Positions 718 to 32,006 of a DNA stretch of 64,000 nucleotides are shown here, piece by piece. Below the pieces are notes generated by a model that worked only from the letters and a program-made list of their open reading frames with translations, was not told the DNA's origin and did not search any database. Made by a program: the position numbers and the translations under genes. The stretch comes from Mnemiopsis leidyi (taxonomy: Eukaryota > Ctenophora > Tentaculata > Lobata > Bolinopsidae). The stretch is taken from contig JH157001.1 of the NCBI GenBank assembly GCA_000226015.1, forward strand, positions 24,148 through 88,147, in the 5' to 3' direction. The first letter of the stretch is position 1, and the number at the start of each line of letters is the position of its first letter.

Positions 718-3700
718 GCGGTAGAGACTACGACGATGAGTATGACTCAAGAGGCCCCGGATTTCCCCCAGAAAACGGAACAGCTGATGTAAGTTTCCTG
801 TACAATTTCAAAAAAAAGTTGAAGAAAAGTTGAGAATCTTTATTCATAAAACTAAAGTGCTATTACGAGTATTACTGATCTGTTGTTGCAAGTTTAACTG
901 TTACCATTGTGTATGTTTCTGTGTGTTTATAATGTACAATATGTTATTATCTTGTGAAGTACCGCACTCCTTTGTAAAGAAGATCTCCACACCACACGGA
1001 CCCTGGAATGTAAGGAATGTGATGTCATGACAAACAGTAAATTCTAGTTACGTTGATGAATGATCTTTCTCTCTCTCCCAGCCCCCCTGTGTGTGTAATT
1101 CAATCATGTTCTGTGTGGAAACTTGAAGCGCTAAGAGAGATCAGATATTATATCGGCGTGTATTGTGCGAGTGCATAGTGGAGATCATCCTATGAGTAAT
1201 TTGGGATCTTATCCGAAATCTGTAAAAATAAAGGTGTTAAAATTGGGTAGATGTTAAAACAAACTCATGTCACATGTAGTGGAATAACGGAAAGGTGTTT
1301 GTTTGTTTGTTGGTAACATGGTCTGTCGATAACAATATGGTGCTGCACGAAGGAAAGTTCGAGTTCCTTCGTTACCAAACAGGTGGTTCCAATGGAAGAA
1401 ATGCCATTCACCAACCTGCAGGATTTACACTCAGTCCTCAATGTGAGATATTTATGTGTTACTCTTTCATCAGACTATCACTGGCGTATTCATGTGCCCT
1501 CGGAGTATTTCGTGACAGAAGTGCTACTGTCATGCTTACTATTTGGAAATCGCTCATCCGGTGCAAGCTAGAGTACTGCTGTCCTCTCTAGCATACCCAC
1601 CGCTTAGAAGACGATGAGACACTGGAAAACGTCCAGCGGTTTTTTTACTCGGCAATCGGCATATAGCTGGTATGGAAGGGGCTAATTACTGGGAGAGACT
1701 CAGCAGACTTAAGCTACAGTCGTTACTAAGAAGACGTGAGCGGTACATGATAATCCACATGTGGAAGCTCCTACACAATCATGTGCCCGATGATCTGAAT
1801 GTTAAGTTTTACCATCGCGAGAGGCTCGGATGGATAGCAAGAATACCGTACCCGTGCTCTTCAAAAGATCCAGGCAATCCTCTAAAACGATCTTCGATGC
1901 CTCGTTCGCTGTGAACGGACCTAAGCTCTGGAACACTCTACCAAAGAATGCCAACACGGCAGTCACCCTCGATTCCTTCAAAATTCACCTAGGTGCTTTT
2001 CTTGAGTCAGTTCCAGGCTGTCCGCCAACTACGGGCTACACCACAGCGAATGCAAATTCCATGCTCAACTGGTGTAACTACGACCAGCAGGGTGGCCTTT
2101 GACAGAAGTTGTGACCCAGTAGGATCCTGCTGAACCTATCACTAAAGGTTCACTAAAGGTGAAGGTATGTTTGTTTGTTTGTTTGTCTGCACATTATAAG
2201 ACTTTTCAAACTTTTCAGGTTGAAGATGTGAGACTTAACGAACGTGATCAGAATCCCAGATTTGCAGCTCAGACTGGGAATGTAGAACTCTCCTATGCGC
2301 CCCCGTAAGTCACGTGACAGTTGACCCAATGCGAAACACTGTTACAATGCTGAATTTTGACATTGAAAACCAGCTAATATTGTGAGTTTTTGATAGCTAA
2401 TACTCTGAGTTTTATACCGAGTGCGGGAGTTTGAAAATAAGTGTTCGCTGTTTTCAGAGATACAAAAGCGAAGAAGAAGCCCGTTTTAAAAGAATTGGTA
2501 AGTTTACAAAGTATATTGAATAAGCGATTAGCGAAATTTAAATTTGTGAACTGCACAGAAATTGTCCAAGTGTCTGTTAATACGTAGAATCACTCTCAGC
2601 CCATAAAATGCAAAGTTGCTCAAGTTATGGCAAGAATACCACATTTAATTTTCAAAATACCTTATCTATTCTATTCAAACAGAAACCGAAAGTGATAAAA
2701 GAGAAATGGAAGCAGAAACCTCCCAGAGAACGCCGGAAATATTGCGGTCTTTTCACATGTCTAATTCTAACTTTGATATGTGTCATTGTCGTTCCTATGG
2801 CTATATGTGAGTATTAACTTATTAACTTACAGCTTATCTTATTTTAAAATGAGTAACTGAGTCCTTACTTAGTCAAAATACATGTCCCTGTACACTCAAA
2901 ATACATGTCCCTGTACACTCGAAATACATGTCCCTGTACACTCGAAATACATGTCCCTGTACACTCAAAATACATGTCCTGTACACTGATAAACTCATCG
3001 CATTTGATCACCACGCCTAGTGTACACCACTGTACACTGTATATAGTACTGTAGGTCGTTATTTCCTGTTCTGTCAAATCTGTATGTACCGGGTTTGTTT
3101 TGTTGATGTTTGTATCCTGGACAATAACACGTGTTATATTTTCTCTTCTTCTTGTTCCAGGTAATTTCATTCATTACAAGTGCTTAATACACGTGCTTGT
3201 TTTAATTGTCATGGGTTTTTGTATCTTTTTTTTAACAGTCAGTTAAAGCAATCTATTATGTACTGCATATGTTCAAACTATCGAATGTTAACACTACCTA
3301 TTTCTAAAGTTTGAGTGTTGTGTGTAGTGTGTGCCGTATAAAAGTTTAAAGTTTACTTTTGATGATACCAACAAAAAGTAATCTCTAGTTTAAATTGTAG
3401 TCACACCAGCTGTTAGGTACGTTGTGAAATATGATATCTACATAGCGACATTGCTGCTTTACTTTTACGTGTATCAGATTTACTTTAAATGTGGTGGTGT
3501 GTTTGTATTCATATTCCTGGATTGTTCATACCAACAAGTCAAGAAAGACAAGTGCGATAAAGTCTGGAAATATATAAGTTGAGATAAAGTCTTGAAAGAT
3601 ATAAGTTGAGATAAAGTCTAGGAAGATATAAGTTGAGATAAAGTCTGGAAATATGTAAGTTGAGATAAAGTCTGGAAATATATAAGTTGAGATAAAGTCT

Positions 3701-6700
3701 AGGAAGATATAAGTTGAGATAAAGTCTTGGAAGATATAAGTTGTCAGGTAGAAGTTCCTTGTATTCTGCCAGCAGTAGCCATAACTTGTCATCACTTTAA
3801 TTATAATGCTGCGTCTTCAACTCCCTGAGGGATTGTACTACATCACAAAATATAACCTTATCTACTCACCGTTCTGTTTTCCACTTTAAGTTGTTTGTTT
3901 TACTTCGTTGTAGTTTAGATTATAGTCGAATGGTAGTTCTTATACTAGTAGATATATAGAGGGGGATAAGGCACTGACCACGACACCCTGGAATTTGCCC
4001 CATTGTCAATGGTCCAAAAACTTTAGGATGTCATGGAAAATTTGAAGTTTTGCCATGGTCATGGTCAACATGTTGTCCATTAAACCACGGTAATACCAGG
4101 AAATTGACTATAGTCATGGTCGAAAATTTTCGTGCAATATTTGATTAGAGTTCGTATGTTGAATATAGACTATACTTTTCTGCTTACTGTGTCTTCATTT
4201 CAGATGTGAGGTTGTGGCACAAACTAACTTGGGACGATATCAGAAACTTGCAAGTCCAACCACGTGACCTAAAGTGGGGTCAGCACGGTACGGAGTAAAT
4301 GTTATTATTTTGTTTGGTCATCATGTGCTCTAACTTCCTTATTGCAATTGTCGATTAATCTGTTTATCTGTTTTCTGTGGCTCTATTTTGTTCATTTGAC
4401 AACAAATGTAACAAATCTGGTTCCTATAACTGAGTGATGTCGTGTACAAGTTTAAAGTTCTGTCAAAAGCAGACAATGTTTCAGGACAATATGTGTACTA
4501 CAGAGATTTCAGTAACAACATCATAGAAGTGGACATGATAAACCACTCTCAAGAACTTATCTTCCCTTTTGAAAAATGGGTAAGTCAGCTATAGCTTTCT
4601 TAAAACATAATATTCTTAAAAGAGCGGCTGCTGAACTTGACGCAGTTATTCTCAAATGTGTCACCGGACATTTCAAGTTCTAACATATTAAATTCTAACA
4701 TTTCAAGTTCTAACATATTAAATTCTAACATTTAACATTCTAACATTTCAAATTCTAATATTTAACATTCTGTTGTAGAATAAGGTGGGATACGACGATT
4801 TCGACGTAACGGGACACAACAGGCTGCTTATCCTGGCCAAAAACAATGGGGTGAGTTCCCCGTACTGTACTTACACGCGTATTTATGTTACAGTTGGATA
4901 AGTCGACACCGGTTGGTGCTAATCTAGGAAATTGTGGTGACCCGCCAATTGTCATCACAACAACACGCAGTAGTTTAAGTTCTCTGACCTTTCACGAGTG
5001 TTATCCATGAAATATAGGAAGTTAGACAATTCATGAAGATGGCTAATTGCGAAAATAGTGGAACCGGTATCCGGTTTACCGTTACGATTTAAAATTAGAC
5101 CAGAATCTGATTCTAATACCGCTACTACCTGGACGTTTTAGTGTACTTTATGGAACGCGCGAACGTAGTTTCTGTAATCTGAGCAAGGGTTGTGGATATT
5201 ATTAACGCGCGTTTTTAATCTAATTTTGAATTAAATGAACAAAATTCTTTGAAAATGCGACACAAACGCCGCCATGTGGAGTCGTATAATCAACATGTGT
5301 CATTCATCAACTTGGTTATCAACCGCTGAAATAGATACATTCGAGTTGTTACCTTTAATCTTTTCAGACATCACATCTACATCTGAATTTTGTCGATCTC
5401 TACAAGTACAAGATTAACGATCAGAATAACGAACCTCAGAAGTTCGACGAAAATGTCGTCCACTGGGCGATAGCATCTGACGCTACTGAAGATAGATTGG
5501 TATGAATTTCAGCTTGTTTCACGTCACCTCATTAATTGGCAGGATACTTTCACACACTCGATCTCCTATGGAACGTTACGGGTCTTTATCACGATGAAGT
5601 ATATCATATCTCGTTATGAGACCTTACACCATGATAACAACAATCTCCCTCATCTTCACATGGCTCAGGTTATTGTGCAACAAGACGACAACAAAAGTTA
5701 CAACATCAGACTGCACGAGCTAGGACCACAAAGTAGAACCTTAAAAGATATCGGGGATGTCTCCACTTCCCCAAATATCATGAGAGGAGTCCTCACCTAT
5801 ATGTACTCGGGTAGGCGTTCAGCTGACTGATCGTTAAATCTTCAACTAAATCCTTACGGTTGCACTGAACTAACTTACTAAATCCTTGATGTTATACATG
5901 TATGATGAAATGATTTCAGAGGAGTTTTTCGGACGGTCGTCTCAAGGATTCTGGATTTCCCAAAACGGAGACTATCTTGTGTACATGGTTACGGACACGA
6001 CCAACGTCAACACCGTTTCTGTGTATGGCTCAAACTCATTGTCGTTTTATCTGAACTTTCCCCGAATTTTAGAGAAGTTTCTTTCGTAAGCTTAAGATGA
6101 TTATGAACAAATGAAGGTGTGTCATTGCCGTTAAACATGCAAATTATTTCTGTTGTATTTCCCAACATTGTCAATATTTCACAGACAGTCCCCATCGGAC
6201 CCGGATAAAAAGATAACGTACGAGTATCCCACCGTACAAAACAGTAGGAACCCAATAGTACGACTTAGGATGTACGATATTCTGCGTGGTAAGATAATTA
6301 CAGGGGCGGACGAAGCTCTGAAGCCTCTCGGCAAGCAAGATAGGGAGTATATCACCTCGGTCTCCTTCCCAAATGCGTAAGTAGATTTGACTATTACCTA
6401 ATACCTATATTGAGTATTACTGATATTGGTTGTAGTTGAGTTTAACTAGTATTGGTGCAGCTTGTGATCTTAAGATCCGGCCTGTACTTGATAACCCTTA
6501 TCTAGTTAACATTAGAATAAAAGTTGACTGTTTCAATCATGCTGGCAAAATCTCACAACCTCCAACATTGTACAGGAAGAAACTGCTTGTGGAGTTCATG
6601 AACCGGGAGCAGACACGTGCCACAACAGAGGAGTGCACCCTAAATCTCAGTCCGACCTGTGAGAATCTCCGAGTACTGCGGCGAAATAGTCATCTGGGCT

Positions 6701-7118
6701 GGTTGCCACGGTACCCGGCAGTCGCGTTTCCGGCACAGGAGAACTTGGAGACCCAGCAGTACTACGTTCTCAGACCTAGAGTTGATAAACAGGTTTGTAC
6801 TTCCTTTTTTGATAAGGTTTAATATGTCTTTTCCGCATATTAAAATATTCTAAATAAGATATGGCACTTCCTATTAATTTTAAGCTATTCAATTTCAACA
6901 CAATATTTTAGCAAAGCTTGATGCACTACCAGGTAGAACTGTATAAATAACCCCGGCCTATCAAAGTTTGCAATCTAAGAAATCTCAAACTTTCAGTTTA
7001 ACTTCACGCACCTGCACAAATACGAAACTACGAGCGACCCAAACAGAAAGATAGCTATCACTACTGGAGAGTATGCAGTGACCGAGCTTATCGGTAACGA
7101 TCACACCCGGAAACATGT
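718..7118 (+). CDS. Dipeptidyl-peptidase-IV-family protein: shared N-terminal and beta-propeller exons
   Basis: Exons read by frame and GT-AG sites: 718-788, 2219-2304, 2458-2497, 2683-2806, 4204-4287, 4485-4579, 4779-4850, 5368-5499, 5543-5810, 5920-6085, 6185-6376, 6576-6792 and 6997-7118. All phases join without a stop, giving about 556 codons. An acidic then basic cytoplasmic N-terminus is followed by one hydrophobic segment (FTCLILTLICVIVVPMAI, exon 2683-2806), so this is a type II membrane protein, as in DPP4, FAP, DPP6 and DPP10. Propeller landmarks are WGQHGQYVYYRDF, YSEEFFGRSSQGFWISQNG (aligning with the Glu-Glu motif of DPP4 that binds the substrate N-terminus), YEYPTVQNSRNPIV, NREQTRATTEECT and HLGWLPRY. 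The start-codon exon is not seen. The last donor (7117-7120) leaves phase 2 and can join either downstream cassette. Family assignment is firm; orthology to a single vertebrate member is not claimed. Confidence 0.88.
1290..2190 (+). mobile_element. Degraded non-LTR retrotransposon (LINE) 3' fragment
   Basis: Lies in an intron of the DPP gene. Reading three frames in turn gives the C-terminal reverse-transcriptase region typical of LINEs of the CR1/Jockey group: KSLIRCKLEYCCPL, ENVQRFF, YWERLSRLKLQSL, RERYMIIHMWKLLHNH, FAVNGPKLWNTLPKNA and DSFKIHLGAFLESVPGC, ending near NWCNYDQQGGL (stop at 2101-2103). At least three frameshifts and a premature stop near 1590 show it is dead. Both flanks carry TTTG repeats (about 1295-1312 and 2168-2188), fitting a simple-repeat 3' tail and insertion into such a repeat. 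The 5' part of the element is absent. Confidence 0.85.
2872..2988. repeat. 23-bp minisatellite
   Basis: Five tandem copies of a unit containing AATACATGTCCCTGTACACT, period 23. The last copy is one base shorter. It lies inside a DPP intron. ACATGT and TGTACA within the unit are palindromic. Confidence 0.9.
3556..3742. repeat. 27-bp minisatellite
   Basis: Seven tandem copies of a unit beginning GATAAAGTCTGGAAATATAT, period 27, with small changes between copies. It lies inside a DPP intron. The minus-strand open frame across it is a repeat artefact (ISTYIF repeated). Confidence 0.9.
4678..4770. repeat. Degenerate TTCTAACAT short-period repeat
   Basis: Irregular repetition of TTCTAACAT(T/A)T with AAATTC and AACATTC spacers, period about 13-15. 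It ends just before the acceptor of the DPP exon at 4779. Confidence 0.6.
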
Positions 7119-7304
7119 GTAAGTTTCGTTATAAGTTGAGTGGAGATTGTTCTATTAATAACTTACAGACAAGCCATCTGACAAACTGACAAAAACCTGA
7201 TAGTATCTAAACTAACATGACTGACTGACTCAATAGACTTACTGACAAAAACAAATACAACTACTGACTAGACCGACTGACAGACCGACTGACAAACACT
7301 TCAG

Positions 7305-8337
7305 GTACTACATCTCAACCGAACACGGACCACACACACGACACCTCTACCGGATCACGCCCCACACCGGCTCCAAGCACTGTCTCTCCTGCCACCTGGA
7401 TTGTTCCTGGGTCTCTGGCTCTTCTACCGGACTCTCACCCGACCTCCGGTACCTCAAACTTACCTGTCTTGGTCCTGGCCCTCCCAATCGTGTCTATCTT
7501 TTCCGGACCAGCCAGACTAAAAGTTTCATGGTTATCCGGACATTTCCGGAGGAGAAGGTTAGAACTCAGAAATCTGTGGTGAAGGAGATAAGGAGGGTGA
7601 AGCTTGGCGGTATCTGGTTTTATGTTCAGTTTTACAAGCCTAGTAACTTTAACCCCAAGAGAAAGTATCCTGTAATTTTCGATGTGTACGGTGGTCCGAC
7701 TAAGAACAAAGTCAGTACAATGTATGGAGTGGGATATAATGAATACTTTGCTGGGAGATACAACACTATTGTAGTAAACATGGATGTCAGGGGTACCCCT
7801 GGGAGGAGTGATAATTTCCAACAAGCCATTTACAAAAAGTTCGGCACTGTCGAAGTTACCGACTCAATCAAGGTTATAAAATGGGTCAGCAGACTTCCCT
7901 ATATAGACTCCTCACGGATGGCCATCAGGGGAGCCTCTTACGGTGGATACCTAGTGACAAAGATTCTGGAGGCAGAGCCGCGACTATTCGTGGCGGCGGT
8001 GTCATCAGCGGCGGTGGCGGACTGGCGGTGGTACGACACGGCGTACACAGAGCGGTTTATGGGAGTGTACGATAAGGCGGTGTACGAGCCTGCTTCAGTT
8101 ATCCCCGACTTAGGGAAGATCCCAAACAATGTCCTCCTGCTGTTACACGGACTGTCGGACACTAACGTCCTGATAAAACATCACTGGGCGGTTGTCAAGG
8201 AGTTGAACAGACTTCACAAGATTTACGGGCAACATGTTAAACCTGGACAGAGACACAGTGTCCGGCGACTGTTTGATATGTTGGTCTGGTTTAGGGAGAG
8301 ACTTTGGAGAAGAAGGAGGAGATGTAGAAGAGGATAG
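7305..8337 (+). CDS. DPP family 3' cassette A: catalytically intact hydrolase domain, single exon
   Basis: A 344-codon terminal exon with no intron. It completes the codon left by the donor at 7118 (Val) and runs to TAG at 8335-8337. It encodes the last propeller blade (YYISTEHGPHTRHLYRIT, LKLTCLGPGPP) and the prolyl-oligopeptidase alpha/beta-hydrolase domain (YPVIFDVYGGP, NMDVRGTPGR). Nucleophile motif RGASYGGY has the Ser codon at 7936-7938. Catalytic Asp lies in HGLSDTNV (codon 8158-8160) and catalytic His in GQRHSVR (codon 8254-8256), matching the Ser-Asp-His order of DPP4, DPP8 and DPP9. AYTERFMG corresponds to VYTERYMG of DPP4. The protein ends in an Arg-rich tail. With the shared exons it gives about 900 residues, in range for DPP4-family proteins given the long cytoplasmic tail. 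Expected activity is removal of Xaa-Pro or Xaa-Ala dipeptides outside the cell. Confidence 0.88.
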
Positions 8338-8881
8338 GAATAGTGTGTTTGTACCTTGAATAGAAAGGAATCTTCAGTTGGAATTGAGGAATTCCTAGAT
8401 GTTTTAGTTGGATGTATGAAATCATATTTTTGTAAAATCTCATTGTGTGTTAAAGTTTATAATCATTAACGTGTGCGGTTATCAAATTCGATGGCCGACG
8501 TCCTGCCCAAGAACCTCGTGCCCCAAAACTTTTTAACCCAGAAATCTTGCTCCAGTGTCGTCCTGCTCCACAACAGACAAATTCGTTCGGATTACAGCTA
8601 GGGTTAGGGTCGCTGGGGCTAAATCTGTGGGATAAAATTTTGATGGGCACGATTTTCCTGGGCAGTACGACGGGAATCTCAATTTCAAAACTCAGCAAAT
8701 GCCGTTTTTATTGATTTGTGTGAAGTAGACTGTTTTCATTGAATACCCAAGTCCCAAGGCCAACTTAAATCAAGTAAATGCTCAAGATAAATGTGACCAA
8801 TGATTATGCTTTAATAGGATCAGGTGATAGTCGCTGTGTCGCCTATAAAAGTTGCACCATGTAAACCAGATAAACCCTCAG
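8338..8881. other. Spacer between the two DPP 3' cassettes
   Basis: Contains the inverted-repeat element at 8493-8674 and no recognisable N-terminal, membrane-anchor or early propeller exons. That absence argues that the downstream cassette is not an independent full-length gene. No clear AATAAA was seen after the stop of cassette A. Confidence 0.6.
8493..8674. mobile_element. Small inverted-repeat element (MITE-like)
   Basis: Arms of about 47 bases: GACGTCCTGCCCAAGAACCT and onward (8498-8543) against the reverse complement of 8625-8673, which reads CGTCGTACTGCCCAGGAAAA and onward. Shared blocks are CTGCCCA, TCGTGCCC and CAAAA-TTTTAxCCCA. The core includes GCTAGGGTTAGGGTCGC. It has no coding capacity and no certain target-site duplication. 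Confidence 0.7.
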
Positions 8882-11253
8882 ATTGTACGTGAGAACTGAA
8901 GTGTTAAATCCGACCCACGAGAGTACTGCCTCAACACGGAAGAGGATGTTGTACATGTACAACGACAGTGCCACCGGAGACAACCAACACACCTGCATTT
9001 CCTGCTTAGAACCGGCCGGACGGTGTGATGTAGCCACTGCTTCTATCGACAGTTCTATGACTTGGTCAGTTTTCTAGTTAGACAAACTTGAACCAGGTTT
9101 AGATTCACGCTAAAGTTTATAGTGATTGGTTGGTTTCGAGTGAACTTTATTAGCACTCACTATTAAGGGCTTATATTCAGAAACCACTTTTTCTGTTACA
9201 TTGTAGATCTTTGCGCAGTCCAATACCCGCCCAATACATCAAGACTCTATCCGACCCTACCCATCCACACCTTCAGGTACCAGCTCTATTGCCTGGGACC
9301 GGGAGTTCCCTACGTTAGAGTAAAGAAGTTCTCCGACCCGAACTACAACGTGTACAGCGATGATCAGGCCAATATCCAGTACCAGGACCCCAGCAAGCAG
9401 GCACAGCTGCTTCAGAAGAGGTCTCCCTGGACTCAGTACACTCAGGTATTTACAGATGCATATATTGGACTCTGGAGCGATTCTTGTAACACCTGAATTT
9501 AGGTTTCACCTTGATTAATAGGTTCTGAGACAGCACACCGTCAGGGCGTCAGGCCACCTAAGAGATGCGAAGTAATCTATTAGAAGTAATTTGTCTAAAC
9601 AATTATACATTCTGACAAGTACAGTTATCGGACTTTTAATAACATCCATGTTTGCACAGGTTGAGTTAGACAAGAACTCGAACATCTACGTAGCTATCAA
9701 GAAGATATTTCCTCTATACTATGTCAAACACGCAAACATCCTCAAATATCCTCTTCTCATTTGGGTGAGCTAAGTACTTTAAACAGTGACAGTCAGAAGT
9801 GCCGACCAAGCGAAATGGTTTTAACAAAATTCCATAGAAATAGGAGAGCCGCTCCAAAAAAAACTCGATCAACCACTAATGTGGGAAAGAATTTCTAGTC
9901 GTCAACCTACAACAGCAATTTTCCAGGTGGACCCATACCCAGACGGGAACATGGCTACCATGAAATACAAGTTAGATCTGGCCCAGTGGCTGGCTACCTC
10001 TAAGGATTGTGTTGTAGCCTACATGGACGTTAAGGGGACTCCGGGACGAGGACTAGCCTTCCACCACTGGCCCTACAGGGATTTTGAGGTTTGCTATTTT
10101 TACTGGCCCTACCAGAATTTTGAGGTTTTATATTTATTACTGTCCTTATAGGGATTTTCAAGTTTACTATTCATCGCTGTTCATAAAGGGATTTTGAGGT
10201 TTGCTATTTATTAATGGCCCTACAGGGATTTGGAGGTTTGCTATTCATTGCGGTCCTATAGGAATTTGGAGCTTTGCTATATTTGATTTAATTTAAGAGG
10301 TGCAAATATTCGAGGGAAATTTTACCCTCCACAGTCATTTTCTTTTTAGATTTTAAACACTAATTGCTTTGCAGAAACTTATCAACAGCGCTGAACAAGC
10401 AATCAGAGACATAAAGATGTATTGGCACGTTAATGACAGTAAGTTAAATTTGAAAATAGCAGTTTAAATCTTCTGTATTAGAAATATCAAGGAACACTGT
10501 GAAAAATAACTAAAAATTTTAATATGTACATTGATAAACAAATTGTTACTTCTGTTGGTTAAACTCGCAACGTTGCAGATAAAGTAGCGATAATGGGAGA
10601 GAAAATGGGAGGTTGGTTGGCATTAAAGATGATGCAAAGGCAGCCAGACTGGTTTAAAGCTTCAATAGCTGTTAACCCTGTCTTTAGTTTCGAGCATTAC
10701 CTACAGGTATGTGACTTTTCTTGCTGTGCAGGATCACAAGCTTGTTTCAATAAATCTTCTTTGACAACTTAGAGACCACTACAACTTAGAGACCAACTTG
10801 AAGTCCACTACAAAAAATCAAGATTGTTATGATTAATAAATGCTAACCCTTTACTGCTATTATATATTGTTGATTGGAACTAAAAGTTAGTAACTTCTGT
10901 TTCCTCAGGCTTACACAGAGCGGTATCTGGACAAGTACTCAACAGAAACTAGTGCGCGATACACTTCAGCTGCCATCAACGACTTCAGCGACTTCACCGC
11001 AGAGATGAAGAAAAAGACCGCTATTTTCTACGATCCACGAAACTACGAAGTACCCCACACATTCCAAACAATCGACTTGTTCCTGAAAAAGGAGACAAGT
11101 AACAGTGGTTACATTGACTTCACAGACTTTACTCTGTTTGACATATTTAACATTGAGAGTACCACCCGAGAAGAGGTGCTAGGCGATGTGTTCCTGGACG
11201 TCGGTCCAAATATCACCCAGTTTCTGGAGACCAGTCCTCACAGTATTTTCTAA
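8882..11253 (+). CDS. DPP family 3' cassette B: catalytically dead hydrolase domain, seven exons
   Basis: Exons 8882-9064, 9277-9445, 9660-9764, 9927-10088, 10375-10438, 10579-10706 and 10909-11253 join in phase, ending with TAA at 11251-11253. The first exon starts with one base completing a codon, so it fits the donor at 7118 as well as cassette A does. Collinear landmarks: LYVRTEVLNPTHES, LYCLGPGVP, AYMDVKGTPGRG and AYTERYLD. Where active enzymes have G-x-S-Y-G-G, this has GEKMGG (Lys codon 10602-10604). The Asp region reads YDPRNYEV, and no RHS or DHG motif follows. It should therefore be inert as a peptidase, like DPP6 and DPP10, which bind potassium channels. Alternatives are a separate gene with an unseen 5' end, or a decaying tandem duplicate. 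Intact frames and splice sites over seven exons argue for function. Confidence 0.8.
10068..10285. repeat. 37-bp minisatellite repeating an exon end and its splice donor
   Basis: Six copies, starting at 10068, 10104, 10141, 10178, 10215 and 10251. The first copy is the last seven codons of a cassette B exon (WPYRDFE) plus the donor GAG/GTTTGC. Later copies repeat both. The first step is 36 bases and in frame, so use of the second donor would add 12 residues ending in WPYQNFE. Confidence 0.88.
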
Positions 11254-11607
11254 AAGCAAATATCACCCAGTTTCTGGAGACCAGTCCTCACAGTATTTTC
11301 TAGAAGCAAATATCACCCAGTTTCTGGAGACCAGTCCTCACAGTATTTTCTAGAAGCAAATATCACCCAGTTTTTGGAGACCAGTCCTCACAGTATTTTC
11401 TAAAAGCAAATATCACCCAGTTTCTGGAGACCAGTCCTCACAGTATTTTCTAGAAGCAAATATCACCCAGTTTCTGGAGACCAGTCCTCACAGTATTTTC
11501 TAGAAGCAAATATCACCCAGTTTTTGGAGACTAGCCCTCACAGTATTTTCTAGAAGCAAATATCACCCAATTTTTGGAGACCAGCCCTCACAGTATTTTC
11601 TAGAAAG
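11208..11607. repeat. 50-bp minisatellite seeded by the last codons and stop of cassette B
   Basis: Eight head-to-tail copies with exact 50-base spacing (starts 11208, 11258, 11308 through 11558). The first copy encodes the C-terminus NITQFLETSPHSIF and the TAA stop. The other seven lie in the 3' UTR and keep the same sequence, with TAG or TAA at the equivalent place. Divergence is only a few bases per copy, so the array is recent or homogenised. Confidence 0.93.
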
Positions 11608-15060: not shown

Positions 15061-16320
15061 ATGAAGATAATTCTAGTTTGCCTGCTGGCTGTTGCCCTTG
15101 CAGAGGACCCTCTCCGAGAGGTCCTCAGGTCGCCCAAAGCTACCCTCAACTTGTACTCTCAGTACAAAGCCAAAAACCATCTGAAGTTCGGCGCCGGAGA
15201 AGACGCGATGAGGTTCAGAATCTTCCGAGCTAACGCCGAGCATGTAGCTGACTACAACGAGGACACCGAGGATGGAGCCCTCTACACCCTCAACAAGTTC
15301 TCTTCCATGACTCCCAATGAGAAGAGGAGGTACCTGGGTCTCAACATCACCTCCATGACCCCCGGACCTGTTGATAACGTCCTGAGGAGCGGAGTTGGCA
15401 AACCCACCGAGCTGCTCTGGACCTCCAAGGGAAAAGTAACTCCCGTCAAGGACCAGGGAGGTTGTGGTTCTTGCTGGACCTTTGGTGCTGTCGGAGGTAT
15501 CGAGACCACTTACGCTGTTAAGTCTGGAGTTCTGAGGAACTTCGCCGAGCAGGAGTACCTCGACTGTGTCTTCGAGGGACAGGACGATGGTTGTGATGGA
15601 GGATGGGTGGACAGATGTTACACGTGGAGTGCCAAGTACGGTGGACGTCTGGCTGCCACCAAGGACTACCCCTACACCGAAAGGGACGGCCGATGTTACT
15701 ACAAGAACAAACCCAACGCCATGAAAGCTTACAAGATCACCGGCTCAATCAGCGTCAGCCAATCTGAGGCTGCCCACATTGACGTACTCCAGTTCGCCTC
15801 CATCGGCGTTGCTTTCGAAGTTACCGACAGGTTCTTCCAGTACGACCGCGAAGTCATCAAGGACACCACGTGCCGTGGACACGCTAACCATGCCGTTACC
15901 ATGGTCGGATATGCCCCCAGCTACGTCCTCGTCAAGAACTCCTGGGGTGCCAACTGGGGAGACAGAGGTTTCGTCAGATTTGCTCGAGGATACCACAACT
16001 GTCAGCTCTTCAAATGGTCCGCCTACCCTCGTCTGGAGAGCACCGGACAATCTGACTCTGGTTCTGACTCTGCCAGCAACTACACTCCCCCTGATGGTGA
16101 CGACCCCAACCCCGGGCCCAAACCGGACCCTAACTGCAAGGACGTCAACTCTGACTGCCAGAAGTGGAGCACCTACTGCAAGTCTAACGGCTGGGTTGAC
16201 TACATGAAGAAGTACTGTGCCAAGACCTGTAACTACTGCGATGGGGGAGATGGTGGTGATTGTCCGAGTGGAACCGTGAGGTGTCCTGATGGAATTTGCA
16301 AGCACCAGCACATGTGTTAG
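15061..16320 (+). CDS. Secreted cathepsin-L-like cysteine protease with C-terminal ShK domain
   Basis: A 419-residue uninterrupted ORF. Residues 1-14 are a signal peptide. The I29-type propeptide has an ERFNIN-like run (AMRFRIFRANAEHVADYN, about 49-66). The mature papain-family domain carries the oxyanion Gln132, catalytic Cys138 in CGSCW, the CDGG turn, His277 in NHAVTMVGY and Asn293 in NSWG. An acidic, Ser/Pro/Asp-rich linker (about 328-357) leads to a ShK domain with six cysteines at 359, 366, 373, 386, 390 and 393. A Gly/Asp linker and a four-cysteine tail (401, 408, 413, 419) end the protein. Expected role is extracellular or digestive/granule proteolysis, with ShK as a binding or targeting module. 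No introns and strong C-ending codon bias, unlike the neighbours, suggest a retrocopy origin or selection for high expression. All catalytic residues are present. Confidence 0.95.
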   Translation: MKIILVCLLAVALAEDPLREVLRSPKATLNLYSQYKAKNHLKFGAGEDAMRFRIFRANAEHVADYNEDTEDGALYTLNKFSSMTPNEKRRYLGLNITSMTPGPVDNVLRSGVGKPTELLWTSKGKVTPVKDQGGCGSCWTFGAVGGIETTYAVKSGVLRNFAEQEYLDCVFEGQDDGCDGGWVDRCYTWSAKYGGRLAATKDYPYTERDGRCYYKNKPNAMKAYKITGSISVSQSEAAHIDVLQFASIGVAFEVTDRFFQYDREVIKDTTCRGHANHAVTMVGYAPSYVLVKNSWGANWGDRGFVRFARGYHNCQLFKWSAYPRLESTGQSDSGSDSASNYTPPDGDDPNPGPKPDPNCKDVNSDCQKWSTYCKSNGWVDYMKKYCAKTCNYCDGGDGGDCPSGTVRCPDGICKHQHMC

Positions 16321-19042: not shown

Positions 19043-22000
19043 ATGAGTCCCATGTCTACCAACGTTTCTTCTCTCGATACCACCTATAGGAAGGTAAGGA
19101 AATAAAGTTTTTTGAATATATTGATATTATTTTTAAATATTATTATTCGGTGTCCCTTATTATTAAAAGTTATTTCTTGACATGATTTAAAATATTATTA
19201 TTCAGTGTCGCTTATTATTAATCTTTTTGTCTTGACATAATTTTAGATATTAATTTTCAGTGTCCCTTATTGATTATAGTTATGTCTAGACATAATTTTA
19301 AATATTATTATTCTGTTTCCAGTGTCCCTTGTAATTTATAGTTATGTCTTGAAATTATTTTAGTTATTTTTATACAATTTACCTTATCATCTATAGTTAT
19401 GTCTTGTGAAGATTTCAGATATTATAATTATATTCAGTGTCCCTTATTATTTCTAGTTATGTCTTGACATAATCTTAGATATTATTATTCAGTGTCCCTT
19501 ACTATTTTTGGTTATATCTTGCCATAATTTTAAATATGATTATTCAGTGTCACTTATTAACTATATTTTAAAGTTATTTCTTGACATAATTTTGTGAGTT
19601 TGCATAAACAGCTTTGTTCATTCGAATTAAATTCAAATAACTTTGAACAATTTTAAATTGCATAATACTCCTTATTAAATAGTTTTGTCTATCAAAATTT
19701 TGAATTTCAGTTGGATCATTTTTAAATCTTTCTTTAATCTTTTCATCACATCATTCTATAATTGCTGCACTTTAATAAGATGACAGGTACAGAACTTTAA
19801 CATTAAGCTAGTGAACTACTGCTCGGGGTCACATCTTCATTCTTTATCGTTCGAAGAGAATATCGATTATTTAACTGATTTTGCCACCGTAACTTTCAAT
19901 ATGTTCTCCATATACTCATATAGTAAACTCTGAATGCTATTTGTGATAACATAACGTAAAGTTTATTCAAGATTTATAATGGATGATGAATCAACTTAAA
20001 AGAAAATTGCAATTGCCCGGACCCTCTGATCTCGAGTTATCAATATTACTTATTGACATTTATTTCAGGTGTTCTTATTGACATTTATTTCAGGTGTTCT
20101 TTTTGACATTTATTTCAGGTGTTCTTATTGACATTTATTTCAGGTTCTAGGTGTTTGTTGGAGGTCTCCCTTACCACACCTCCGACCAGTCACTTCGGGA
20201 ATTCTTTCAAACATTCGGTGAAATCGAGGAGGCAGTTGTGATACATGATCGAGCCACCGGCAAGAGCAAGGGATATGGCTTTGTGAGTGTGATTATATAA
20301 TGAGCGTTTTTTGTCATTTTGTCTAGTTAGACTGTTCCGCTATATTTTTCGGACTATTTAAGTTCAATTTGAACTAAACCGAACGATTAGATAGTCGAGC
20401 AATTAACAAATTACTTAAGTACCCAATTACATAATTACATAATTGTGTAATAACGCCTGTCCCAGGTGACGATGCAAGATGCGGATGCCGCCAGCAAAGC
20501 GGTCGCCAACCCTACTCCCATCATAGACGGCAGAAAAGCTAACGTCAATTTAGCCTACCTTGGAGCTAAACCACGGCCTAAGAGTGAGTTTTTGTTTTTG
20601 TTCACACTATAACTTACTTTCTGATTTGAACATACAGAGAAAAGTAACATTCAAATCAGAACTGTTATGAGACTGAATAACTATCCGCTGCTTTACTACT
20701 AATAATTAACTTTAATAGACTAGACTATCTCTTAGAAACAGAGAGAGTTTAGTCACATGATAGCTTTGCTCGATATTGATCGCCTTGACATGACATATGT
20801 TACACCTCCCCAATAATACCTTTCTCTATTTAATTGTTATATGCAAATAAATGAAAATACTTACGAGCGTCCGGCGCAAGCCCATGAAAAAATGTTTTAT
20901 ATTTATGGCAACTAGTGTCCGGTAGAAGAATCAGTATGGTTAGAATTTGAAAAAAAGGCTATTTTTCACCTTGACGTTTGCTCGCAGAAAGCTCTACTCC
21001 AGACTTATCTCACATTCGTTTCAACGCATTGCATGACTCCAGCCAGGCCCTGGCTGGCCCTGCCCTGAGCCCCCATTTAGAAAAGCATGTTTCCTTCCAC
21101 CCAAATATTAGGCCACGTGATTAGGCTTGCCGTTACAGCCATGTTGTGGTGGATTAAAGCAAGTGTGGTCGATGTGTACAATACGAATTAAAATTTCCGT
21201 GTCAAGATAATCAAGTTAAATGCCGGCGCGGGGTGTATTTTGGGTGGGTGGCTGGATGTCGTTAATTGACTGTAAATGTGCAATTGTGAACAGTTGCTCC
21301 TGGATTGGGGCGCTGGCTTATTTACAAACCCACCTCGTGGCTCTTAGTAATTGTGATGTCAGAGAGCAAGCACTCTACTCGACTGAGGAAACTCGAAAAT
21401 GGTCAAATTGGGCACACAACGCCTGCAATGCTGGCCAGATTACTAAACATTTTACCCATTGCTCATTTGGCTACGACTAGCAATATCGTCTTACGTCAGA
21501 CTAAAAACAGTAATTAGTAAACATCTCTCCCCCAACTAATATAGGAGTCAATTAGTGATCCTGTCCAGGGCTTGTTTAGATAATTGCTTATTTTCAGTCT
21601 TACCAGTCGTTCACGAGTAAATATTGCATATTTCACTCAATTTAAACTTGAAAGCAGTCATTAATCTTGGTAGCTCTTGTCAATTTCACATCAATCGATG
21701 GCGAGAATGCTAAAGATCGGAATAACTCCAGAAATAGCCTGACAAGTAACTCTTTCAGTTGTTCCAGGTGTCATTGGACTGCGACCCCTGACCGCTGGTT
21801 CTCTGATTCACCCACAATACGCTACTGCTACTGCGTAAGTCAAAATCTCATTTTAATTTAGTTTTGTCTGATTAGAGAGTAAAAGTCTATAGAGTTAAAA
21901 TAAAAATTTTAATAGTCGAGGGCTTAGTAAAATCTGTTATAAAGTTGAAAAGTTAAGGAAAGAGTAAAAGTAAGTAATGTTTCAACTTTATAGTTGTATG

Positions 22001-29495: not shown

Positions 29496-32006
29496 ATGAG
29501 ACGTGCAGCCATGTTCTTCATATGCTTCTTACTACTACTAGACAGCTCTGATAATTCAGGTAAAAATTCCATCTCGAAGTCGACCTCCTGCGGCCCCTCC
29601 CCGCCCCTACAAGGTCCCCGGTAGTCGGTCCCCCCTGNNNNNNNNNNCTCTCCTCGCCCCTACAAGGCCAAGGTCCTCGGTAGTCAGTCCCTCCTTCCTC
29701 TCCTCGCCCCTACAAGGTCCTCGGTAGTCGGTCCCCTCCAATTCCTCTCCTCGCCCCTACAAGGTCCTCGGTAGTCGGTCCCCTCTTGCACCTCTCCTCG
29801 TCCCTACAAGGTCCCCGGCGGTGATGTGAAATAGTGGTTGACATTTAGTGCTCGTGTAGTTGTTTAGATTGTTGTTTAGATTGTAGATTAAAAGCAATGT
29901 AACAGTAGCTTATAAAAATAATACTAATAGTAATATGGTAACTGTAGAAGTATCTTAGTGTTTTATAGCTCCAAGCCTCATAGTCATACGCAATTCTGAT
30001 ACAGGTTGGACAGCAGTACAATCTAAAACGAAAATACGATACAATCTGCAGACCTTCCCTATCCAAATCAAAACGGACAGTGCAATTGGGAGTAATGAAG
30101 GATTGAAAGTAATATTTTTATCAGCAATGGGGGCATGGGCGGGGGGAGTCGAAATCACATTTAGGTCCTCTCCTGAGTATTATCTCTATGGCTGCTTTAC
30201 TCCGGGATCGCCTCAGCACTTCCCAAATGCCCTCCCATATGATAGTGACAACGTTAGAGTATGGACGATTACAAGGAAAAAGACCCCTGCAATGACTTTA
30301 GTAATTCACTGTGACGACAAAGAAGTTGTCAACCTAGTGATCTCCAACCTAACGTGTACTCAAGATGTGGCACCGTGGAGCTGGGATGTTGTAGAGATAT
30401 ATTTGGACGATTCCAACTCGGCAACAGTTTACTATAGACCAGGTAATGAATTTCATACTGACGATCGATAACTCTGAAGGTAAGCTCCTCATACCAGTTC
30501 AATTAAATAAAGAACGCGTCATTTCCTGGAAAGGAACTTAAAATCAAAAGAGACACTTTGTGACATGGGTAGTGTTGCTCGATAGCGAGCCCTCATCGGT
30601 CAATCAAACTATCGCATGATTTATAAAATTCACGACAGCTTTATTTGGAGAAAAATAAGCAATTAAGTGATACATGGAGTTGTAAGCTGTAACCGAGTGG
30701 AAATGGAAGCATCACCGAAAATTGAGGCAAATCATTTTTAACCTATTTACTATAACTATAGTCAATATAATCAGGTCACAAGAACAACACATCTTTTCAG
30801 GAATCCCGAAGGCTGAGATCGGAATAGCACATTTATCGTCTGACGAAATCCCCCTAACTCAAGCTCTTCTTTTCGACGGGGATTATAACACGACTGCTAT
30901 ATCACAAAATTACACGCTGCTTGACAACAAGCCGGAAAACTTCGCGATAATTCTCGTCCTGAAGCACGTGACTAGAATTAAAATGATAAGGATACTTAAC
31001 AGGGTTGACTGTTGCAGAGACAGGCTAATTGGGTTTAAAGTGATCATCAGGGAAGAAGAAGTGGGCAACAGTAAAGCAATTACGTGTGGAACTATCGAAG
31101 AGGAAAGTCTGGAATATGAGTTTGCTTGTGAAGGGGTTGGGTATAGAGTATCTTTGAGGAATAGCAACCCTATTGAGTGGGTCAACTTGGCGGAAGTCGA
31201 AGTATATGGAGAAAGGGGTGAGTAACTAAGTGACTGTAGCTTGTTTTTATTGATGGTCTGTGAAAAAAAGTTAAGTTAAGTGACTTTTTATTTTGTCTAA
31301 AATTCCAACTTTACAATCAGTAGTTTACTAAAATTCTACAGACTTTCAGTTTCCAAGCATGATACCGGTGGTGGATGCCGAAATGACCACTGTAGAAGAA
31401 TCACATCCAGTCACAAACCTTTACGACGGCGATTACAGAACATTTGCCCTTAGCTCTCAGAGCGATCAGCTACCACCCATTTCCAGAGCTGGTTCACCCT
31501 CCTCCATTCACTTTGTCATCACCATCAGTTTAGGGTCTTTTTCTTACAAAATTAGATCGATTAGACTGATCAACAGATTTGACGGCGAAAGGGATACTAT
31601 CACAGGATTTGATGTATTCATCATGGATGGAAGCATCGATGATCAGTATATTGGAAGCGTTAGCGAAGATGGAAGAGCCGACTACAGTTTTAGGGATGGA
31701 GGAATTGGTAATAAGGTTGAACTAAGGAAGAACAGCACAGTGCACAGCGTAAATCTAGCTGAGGTTGAAGTTTATGGAACTTTACTTGGTAAGCAATGCA
31801 CCATTGGTCACTAAACATTCAAAAGTTAAACAGAGGTTGAATAATAAACTTAAAGCGTCGGAAAAATCGAATTTAAAAAAATCGATTAATTTTTTTCAGG
31901 GAAGGTATTTTCTCGTTTTAGGGTCTTGGCATTGATCTATTATGTTATGTATTCATATTTCGTCGAGTTATTACAAAGACGTAAATGTAAAGTTCGCACC
32001 CAGTAA
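29496..32006 (+). CDS. Secreted or membrane protein with two F-type-lectin-like domains
   Basis: Exons 29496-29559, 30005-30442, 30801-31217, 31342-31788 and 31900 onward, all split after the first base of a codon. The first encodes a signal peptide (AAMFFICFLLLL). The second encodes about 146 residues (RYNLQTFPIQIKTDS, GVEITFRSSPEYYLYGCF, WDVVEIYLDD) of no domain I can name. The third and fourth each encode a galactose-binding-fold domain of fucolectin type: LFDGDYNTTA, ILNRVDCCRDRLIGFKV, LAEVEVYGE; then LYDGDYRTFA, LINRFDGERDTITGFDV, LAEVEVYG. The second has lost the CC of NRxDCC. The fifth has a hydrophobic run (FRVLALIYYVMYSYFVELL) and basic residues. It either stops at TAA 32004-32006 or splices at GTAAGT 32003. 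Likely role is carbohydrate recognition at the cell surface. An assembly gap lies in intron 1. Confidence 0.8.
29590..29815. repeat. 47-bp GC-rich minisatellite containing an assembly gap
   Basis: Units of about 47 bases containing CTCGCCCCTACAAGGTCCTC and GGTAGTCGGTCCCCTC, at least five copies. Ten N at 29638-29647 interrupt it, so the copy number is unresolved. It is strikingly C-rich for this AT-rich region. Confidence 0.88.

Follow-up and report, generated by a model that had tools for sequence, protein, structure and literature searches.

The plus strand of the 64-kb window, i.e., the whole stretch of Mnemiopsis leidyi DNA analyzed here, carries one gene of the DPP4 family (S9B) at positions 718-11253. 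Its 5' start probably lies upstream of 718, outside the window. Thirteen exons between 718 and 7118 are common to two possible 3' ends and were found with consistent GT-AG borders and a single open frame. This shared half encodes a cytoplasmic tail, a membrane anchor, and the propeller blades short of the last one. The basic tail of more than 80 residues is spread over the exons 718-788 (open frame, AG/GT borders), 2219-2304, and 2458-2497, followed by the sole transmembrane anchor LFTCLILTLICVIVVPMAI in exon 2683-2806 (Kyte-Doolittle mean 2.86). The ectodomain begins in exon 4204-4287. Propeller exons follow at 4485-4579, 4779-4850, 5368-5499, 5669-5810, 5920-6085, 6185-6376, and 6576-6792, and the final shared exon 6997-7118 ends with a phase-2 donor (7118|gtaagt). 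Using the shared half alone, the Pfam domain DPPIV_N was matched over profile positions 22-293 of 354 (85.7 bits, 3e-24), and a search against the PDB gave no match at 0.001. Functional residues (Arg125, Glu205-Glu206, Tyr547, and others) are given in their usual numbering. In the alignment to DPP4 both residues of the Glu-Glu motif are present, with YSEEFFG in exon 5920-6085 placed on YEEEIFG (Glu205-Glu206) and the first Glu split over 5810/5920. The Arg of the Arg125 region in exon 5368-5499 is not kept, its position aligning with His. Several unrelated minisatellites with units of 29, 23, 27, and 15-30 bp are scattered through the introns between 379 and 4771. Two overlapping open frames in the intron at 1618-2102 resemble, judged by eye, the 3' end of a non-LTR retrotransposon, with no Pfam match.

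Behind the shared half lie two homologous terminal modules. Module A is a single plus-strand exon at 7305-8337 (1033 nt, 344 amino acids, stop TAG at 8337) encoding the last propeller blade and the hydrolase. It matched the Pfam domain Peptidase_S9 with 1e-39, and with 134.3 bits in the protein joined to the shared half, which shows a DPPIV_N propeller followed by Peptidase_S9 as in DPP4-type S9B peptidases. The catalytic triad is present in GASYGGY, SDTNV, and QRHSV (S211, D285, H317) and was invariant in an alignment with bacterial DPP IV. The positions Tyr547, Tyr662, Tyr666, and Asn710 are also retained, and Ala replaces Trp629 in front of the catalytic Ser (GWSYGG to GASYGG). Core identity is 38% to DPP4 and 40% to a DPP IV from Muribaculaceae; the three bacterial comparison loci were retrieved with short patterns from module A itself, VADWRWYD among them. 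A horizontal acquisition of module A from bacteria was considered and rejected in view of this way of retrieval and of the blade part of module A, which carries the animal motif CxxC...LxCxGPG. The product of module A is a probable dipeptidyl peptidase. We are aware of the fact that this activity is only a prediction, since the triad is kept but the Arg125 equivalent is not, and GWSYGG is changed to GASYGG. A structure prediction for module A from a 4-row alignment (mean pLDDT 57) was not relied on. Searching 8338-8881, i.e., 3' of module A, no AATAAA was found, so module A may use an unusual poly(A) signal or share a distal 3' end with module B.

Module B consists of seven GT-AG exons on the plus strand (8882-11253, 385 amino acids). 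Exon 1 (8882-9064) encodes the last propeller blade with a CISC...RC motif and exon 2 (9277-9445) the family motif YQLYCLGPG, followed by exon 3 (9660-9764), exon 4 (9927-10088) with Asp at the Tyr547 position, exon 5 (10375-10438), and exon 6 (10579-10706) with GEKMGGW, where Lys occupies the position of the catalytic Ser. In exon 7 (10909-11253, stop TAA at 11251-11253) AYTERYL is present; the triad Asp and His are lost. The start of exon 2 was set at 9277, because an acceptor at 9207 gives a TGA, while with 9277 a Trp is read in frame and YQLYCLGPG is recovered. Despite the replaced Ser, module B is still recognizable as an S9B hydrolase (Peptidase_S9, 4e-15), and the four blade cysteines are present. 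Asn710 is lost in addition to Tyr547 and the triad, and neither the Asp/His region nor the C-terminal third could be aligned to the family. Judged by these residues, the product should be dead as a peptidase. The core is 28% identical to module A, 31% to DPP4, and 27 and 25% to DPP6 and DPP10, respectively, thus no nearer to the latter two than to DPP4. In the tree, module B formed a very long branch of 4.5 changes per column, too divergent for a placement. An earlier note on this DNA had proposed a split into an active and a catalytically dead cassette. Its dead half agrees with the loss of all three triad residues in module B and its active half with the intact triad of module A, the activity itself staying at the level of a prediction. 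A 50-bp minisatellite (11207-11605, plus strand, 8 copies, 97% alike) starts within exon 7 of module B and runs into the 3' flank, each copy repeating the last approximately 14 codons and the stop.

Both modules fit the same donor. The donor at 7118 leaves the two bases GT, and the acceptors ...cttcag|7305 (G) and ...cctcag|8882 (A) each complete a Val, from which the proteins continue as VYYISTEHGP (module A) and VLYVRTEVLN (module B); the DPP4 counterpart reads LYYISNEH. The two acceptors therefore share donor, phase, and homologous residue. Joining the shared half to the modules raised the DPPIV_N score from 85.7 bits to 132.5 bits with module A and 101.5 bits with module B. As both alignments reached the last profile positions (353-354), both junctions are collinear. 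Each module adds the missing last propeller blade in register, then the hydrolase. One donor, two in-phase acceptors, and an own stop for each module make up the anatomy of alternative terminal modules. The earlier note had described both acceptors as completing Val in frame and both cassettes as comprising the last blade plus hydrolase with a stop; phases, profile alignments, Pfam matches, and open frames agree, and its coordinates were correct, the refinement being that module B is multi-exonic with exon 2 at 9277. Using a local splice matrix, which is small, acceptor 7305 scored 2.4 and acceptor 8882 scored 11.0. The intron from 7118 to 8882 that skips module A would measure 1763 bases, compared to 1430 bases for the longest of the gene's remaining introns.

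The region between the modules (8338-8881) contains no transmembrane stretch, no DPP-like exon, and no further DPP 5' half, in line with the absence of anchor and early propeller exons noticed earlier. Upstream of module B no alternative DPP 5' half, no anchor, and no in-frame start were found, in-frame stops lie directly upstream of 8882, and the rest of the 64-kb window holds no further DPP copy. An imperfect inverted repeat of the foldback/MITE-like type is located between the modules at 8490-8678 (plus strand, 66-nt arms, 73%, DNA fold z of -3.5) and occurs as a single copy in the window. As no anchor or propeller exons separate the modules, the locus is best read as one DPP4-family gene whose donor 7118 serves two alternative terminal modules, a reading that we consider reasonably probable. 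With no DPP front half between the modules and stops upstream of 8882, module B is most simply used from donor 7118 by skipping module A. In the pre-mRNA, donor 7118 would thus be joined to the single exon of module A close by or to the seven exons of module B further downstream, and this choice would set which hydrolase is joined to the common anchored propeller. Either splice form would give a type II membrane protein; the cytoplasmic tail, the anchor, and the propeller up to its last blade would be identical, and the last blade and the hydrolase would differ. The weaker near acceptor 7305 as a setting for regulation is only a lead.

Several observations count against the two-module reading: a TATA-like TATAAAAG at 8844-8851 shortly upstream of the module B acceptor, the missing AATAAA, the low score of acceptor 7305, the Ala for Trp629 in module A, and the Arg125 equivalent missing from the shared half. 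The TATA-like element and the missing AATAAA would allow for a separate initiation of module B or a common 3' end of both modules. Trans-splicing is found in several invertebrate groups. Module B might be a separate gene, transcribed from its own promoter or provided with a spliced leader at 8882, whose translation starts at an internal Met and gives a free hydrolase-like protein that has neither anchor nor propeller. The element at 8844-8851 and an in-frame Met (RKRM) about 20 codons into module B would suit such a gene, but module B begins at exactly the residue and phase where module A begins, and its partial propeller blade is only meaningful when joined to other blades. It also lacks a signal peptide or anchor and has in-frame stops immediately upstream. 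We regard a separate gene as unlikely, though it is the strongest competitor of the two-module reading.

The coding state of module B bears on a further explanation, namely an unexpressed remnant of a tandem duplicate whose 5' half was lost. The presence of a 3' half alone, the lost catalytic residues, and the unalignable C-terminal third are what one would expect of such a remnant. However, the 385 codons are free of stops, six introns are intact, no frameshift was observed, and the splice sites are good. The codon-usage score was 0.142 for module B and 0.126 for module A, compared to -0.24 +/- 0.07 for introns, with a GC3 of 0.58 and 0.57 for modules B and A, respectively. When neutral decay to 60-30% identity was simulated, none of the 120 copies per level stayed stop-free, with approximately 9-14 stops on average. 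Open frame, coding-like codon use, and the lack of stop-free neutral copies, at a core identity of 28%, indicate that module B is maintained as a protein over a long time. A decayed pseudogene was rejected for the lack of stops, frameshifts, or broken splice sites over seven exons. The retained Peptidase_S9 match and the four blade cysteines speak against an unexpressed remnant as well, which we hold to be improbable, more so than a separate gene.

Slightly less probable again is the reverse case, in which the standing gene consists of the shared half and the multi-exon pseudo-peptidase module B, with module A as a later intronless arrival that is seldom or never spliced in. It would explain why module A is intronless, whereas module B and the shared half are intron-rich, and why acceptor 7305 scores below 8882; the shared half, without a PDB match at 0.001, is also strongly diverged. 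Module A is nevertheless well conserved (Peptidase_S9 1e-39, 38% core identity to DPP4), and its acceptor sits at the exact homologous position, which is not expected from a random insertion. Finally, an assembly or haplotype artefact that attached two gene ends to a single front half is very improbable: the many minisatellites of the region could mislead an assembly, but the sequence is unique, the exons are intact throughout, runs of N are absent, and a core identity of merely 28% excludes that modules A and B are two alleles.

Returning to one gene with two alternative ends, the choice of the terminal module might switch between an active and a dead form, with anchor, promoter, and most of the propeller in common and mixed dimers possible; we see even chances for such a switch. 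DPP4-family proteins dimerise, which makes a pairing of the module B product with the module A product plausible. As a candidate role, the pseudo-peptidase would be retained for ligand binding or for pairing with the module A product, which is likelier than a role as channel partner. The latter had been proposed in the earlier note as the counterpart of the peptidase. In DPP6, DPP10, and the fly DPP10, the part that binds Kv4 is the transmembrane region with its flanks (PMC4873792). Since shared exons encode this region here, Kv4 binding through it cannot be switched by choosing a 3' end. Comparing the transmembrane and flanking region with solved structures, no DPP6 chain was among the PDB matches, and a simple alignment control, which is a weak test, gave z-scores of 2.1 for both DPP6 and FAP and thus no preference for DPP6/DPP10. 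Moreover, the fly DPP10 has peptidase activity and also partners Kv4 (PMC4873792), hence "dead" and "channel partner" need not coincide. The distinction of active versus dead was kept, while that of peptidase versus channel partner is not supported and was dropped.

With regard to the origin, a tandem duplication is the most likely route to both modules; it may have covered just the 3' part of the gene, or the complete gene, whose second copy then lost its 5' half. Either version fits, because modules A and B begin at the same residue and in the same phase. After the duplication, module A would have lost its introns and module B its catalysis. As a core of 25 exons is common to vertebrate DPP6 and DPP10 (PMC3973911), the many introns of module B look ordinary, and the intronless state of module A is the odd one. 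A cDNA-mediated intron loss in module A would fit. Neither the intron before module A compared with the spacer before module B nor the 3' flanks of the two modules showed remnant similarity beyond chance.

In vertebrates, the active DPP4 and FAP and the inactive DPP6 and DPP10 are encoded by separate genes. DPP4 and FAP (MEROPS S9B) resemble the protein described here in their type II anchor and in the eight-blade propeller with alpha/beta hydrolase, and share with module A the triad and the blade motif CLSC...LxCxGPGxP. They differ in the single 3' end of the vertebrate genes, in the Arg125 equivalent, and in the intronless state of module A. Module B is like DPP6 and DPP10 in the loss of the catalytic Ser, the Asp at the Tyr547 position, and the lack of Trp629, but has lost the triad Asp and His which these retain; the transmembrane region of the gene is not DPP6/DPP10-like. 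DPP6 and DPP10 vary through alternative first, not last, exons (PMC3973911). The fly DPP10 likewise represents an invertebrate S9B membrane protein related to active and channel-linked members, yet it combines activity and Kv4 partnership in one protein (PMC4873792), whereas here activity and inactivity would be divided between isoforms. Genes with alternative terminal exons in general show the same arrangement of one donor, two 3' modules, and separate stops. This class is already known, but what is exchanged in the present gene is an entire catalytic domain for its homologue, only one of the two having an active site. The active/dead DPP version appears undescribed, as the earlier note had also stated: the open-licence literature yielded no gene of the DPP family that combines an active with a dead 3' end, which is weak as evidence of absence.

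If both ends are used, one gene would yield an enzyme and a non-cutting look-alike. The origin of pseudo-peptidases is usually inferred only once the genes have separated. A gene carrying the two versions behind a common front half would reveal an intermediate route, in which the catalytic end is duplicated and one copy then loses catalysis. It would also make testable whether the dead isoform regulates the live one or binds something else.

Searches for Rfam families and tRNAs found nothing in the window. At 15061-16320 a single-exon gene encodes a secreted papain-family cysteine protease with an I29 propeptide and a C-terminal ShK domain. An RRM protein, RBM24/RBM38-like when read by eye, is encoded by exons at 20150-20590. 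Two adjacent open frames with similar repeats (LAEVEVYG) lie at 30686-31814, one of them with a sub-threshold match to a galactose-binding F5/8C-like domain.
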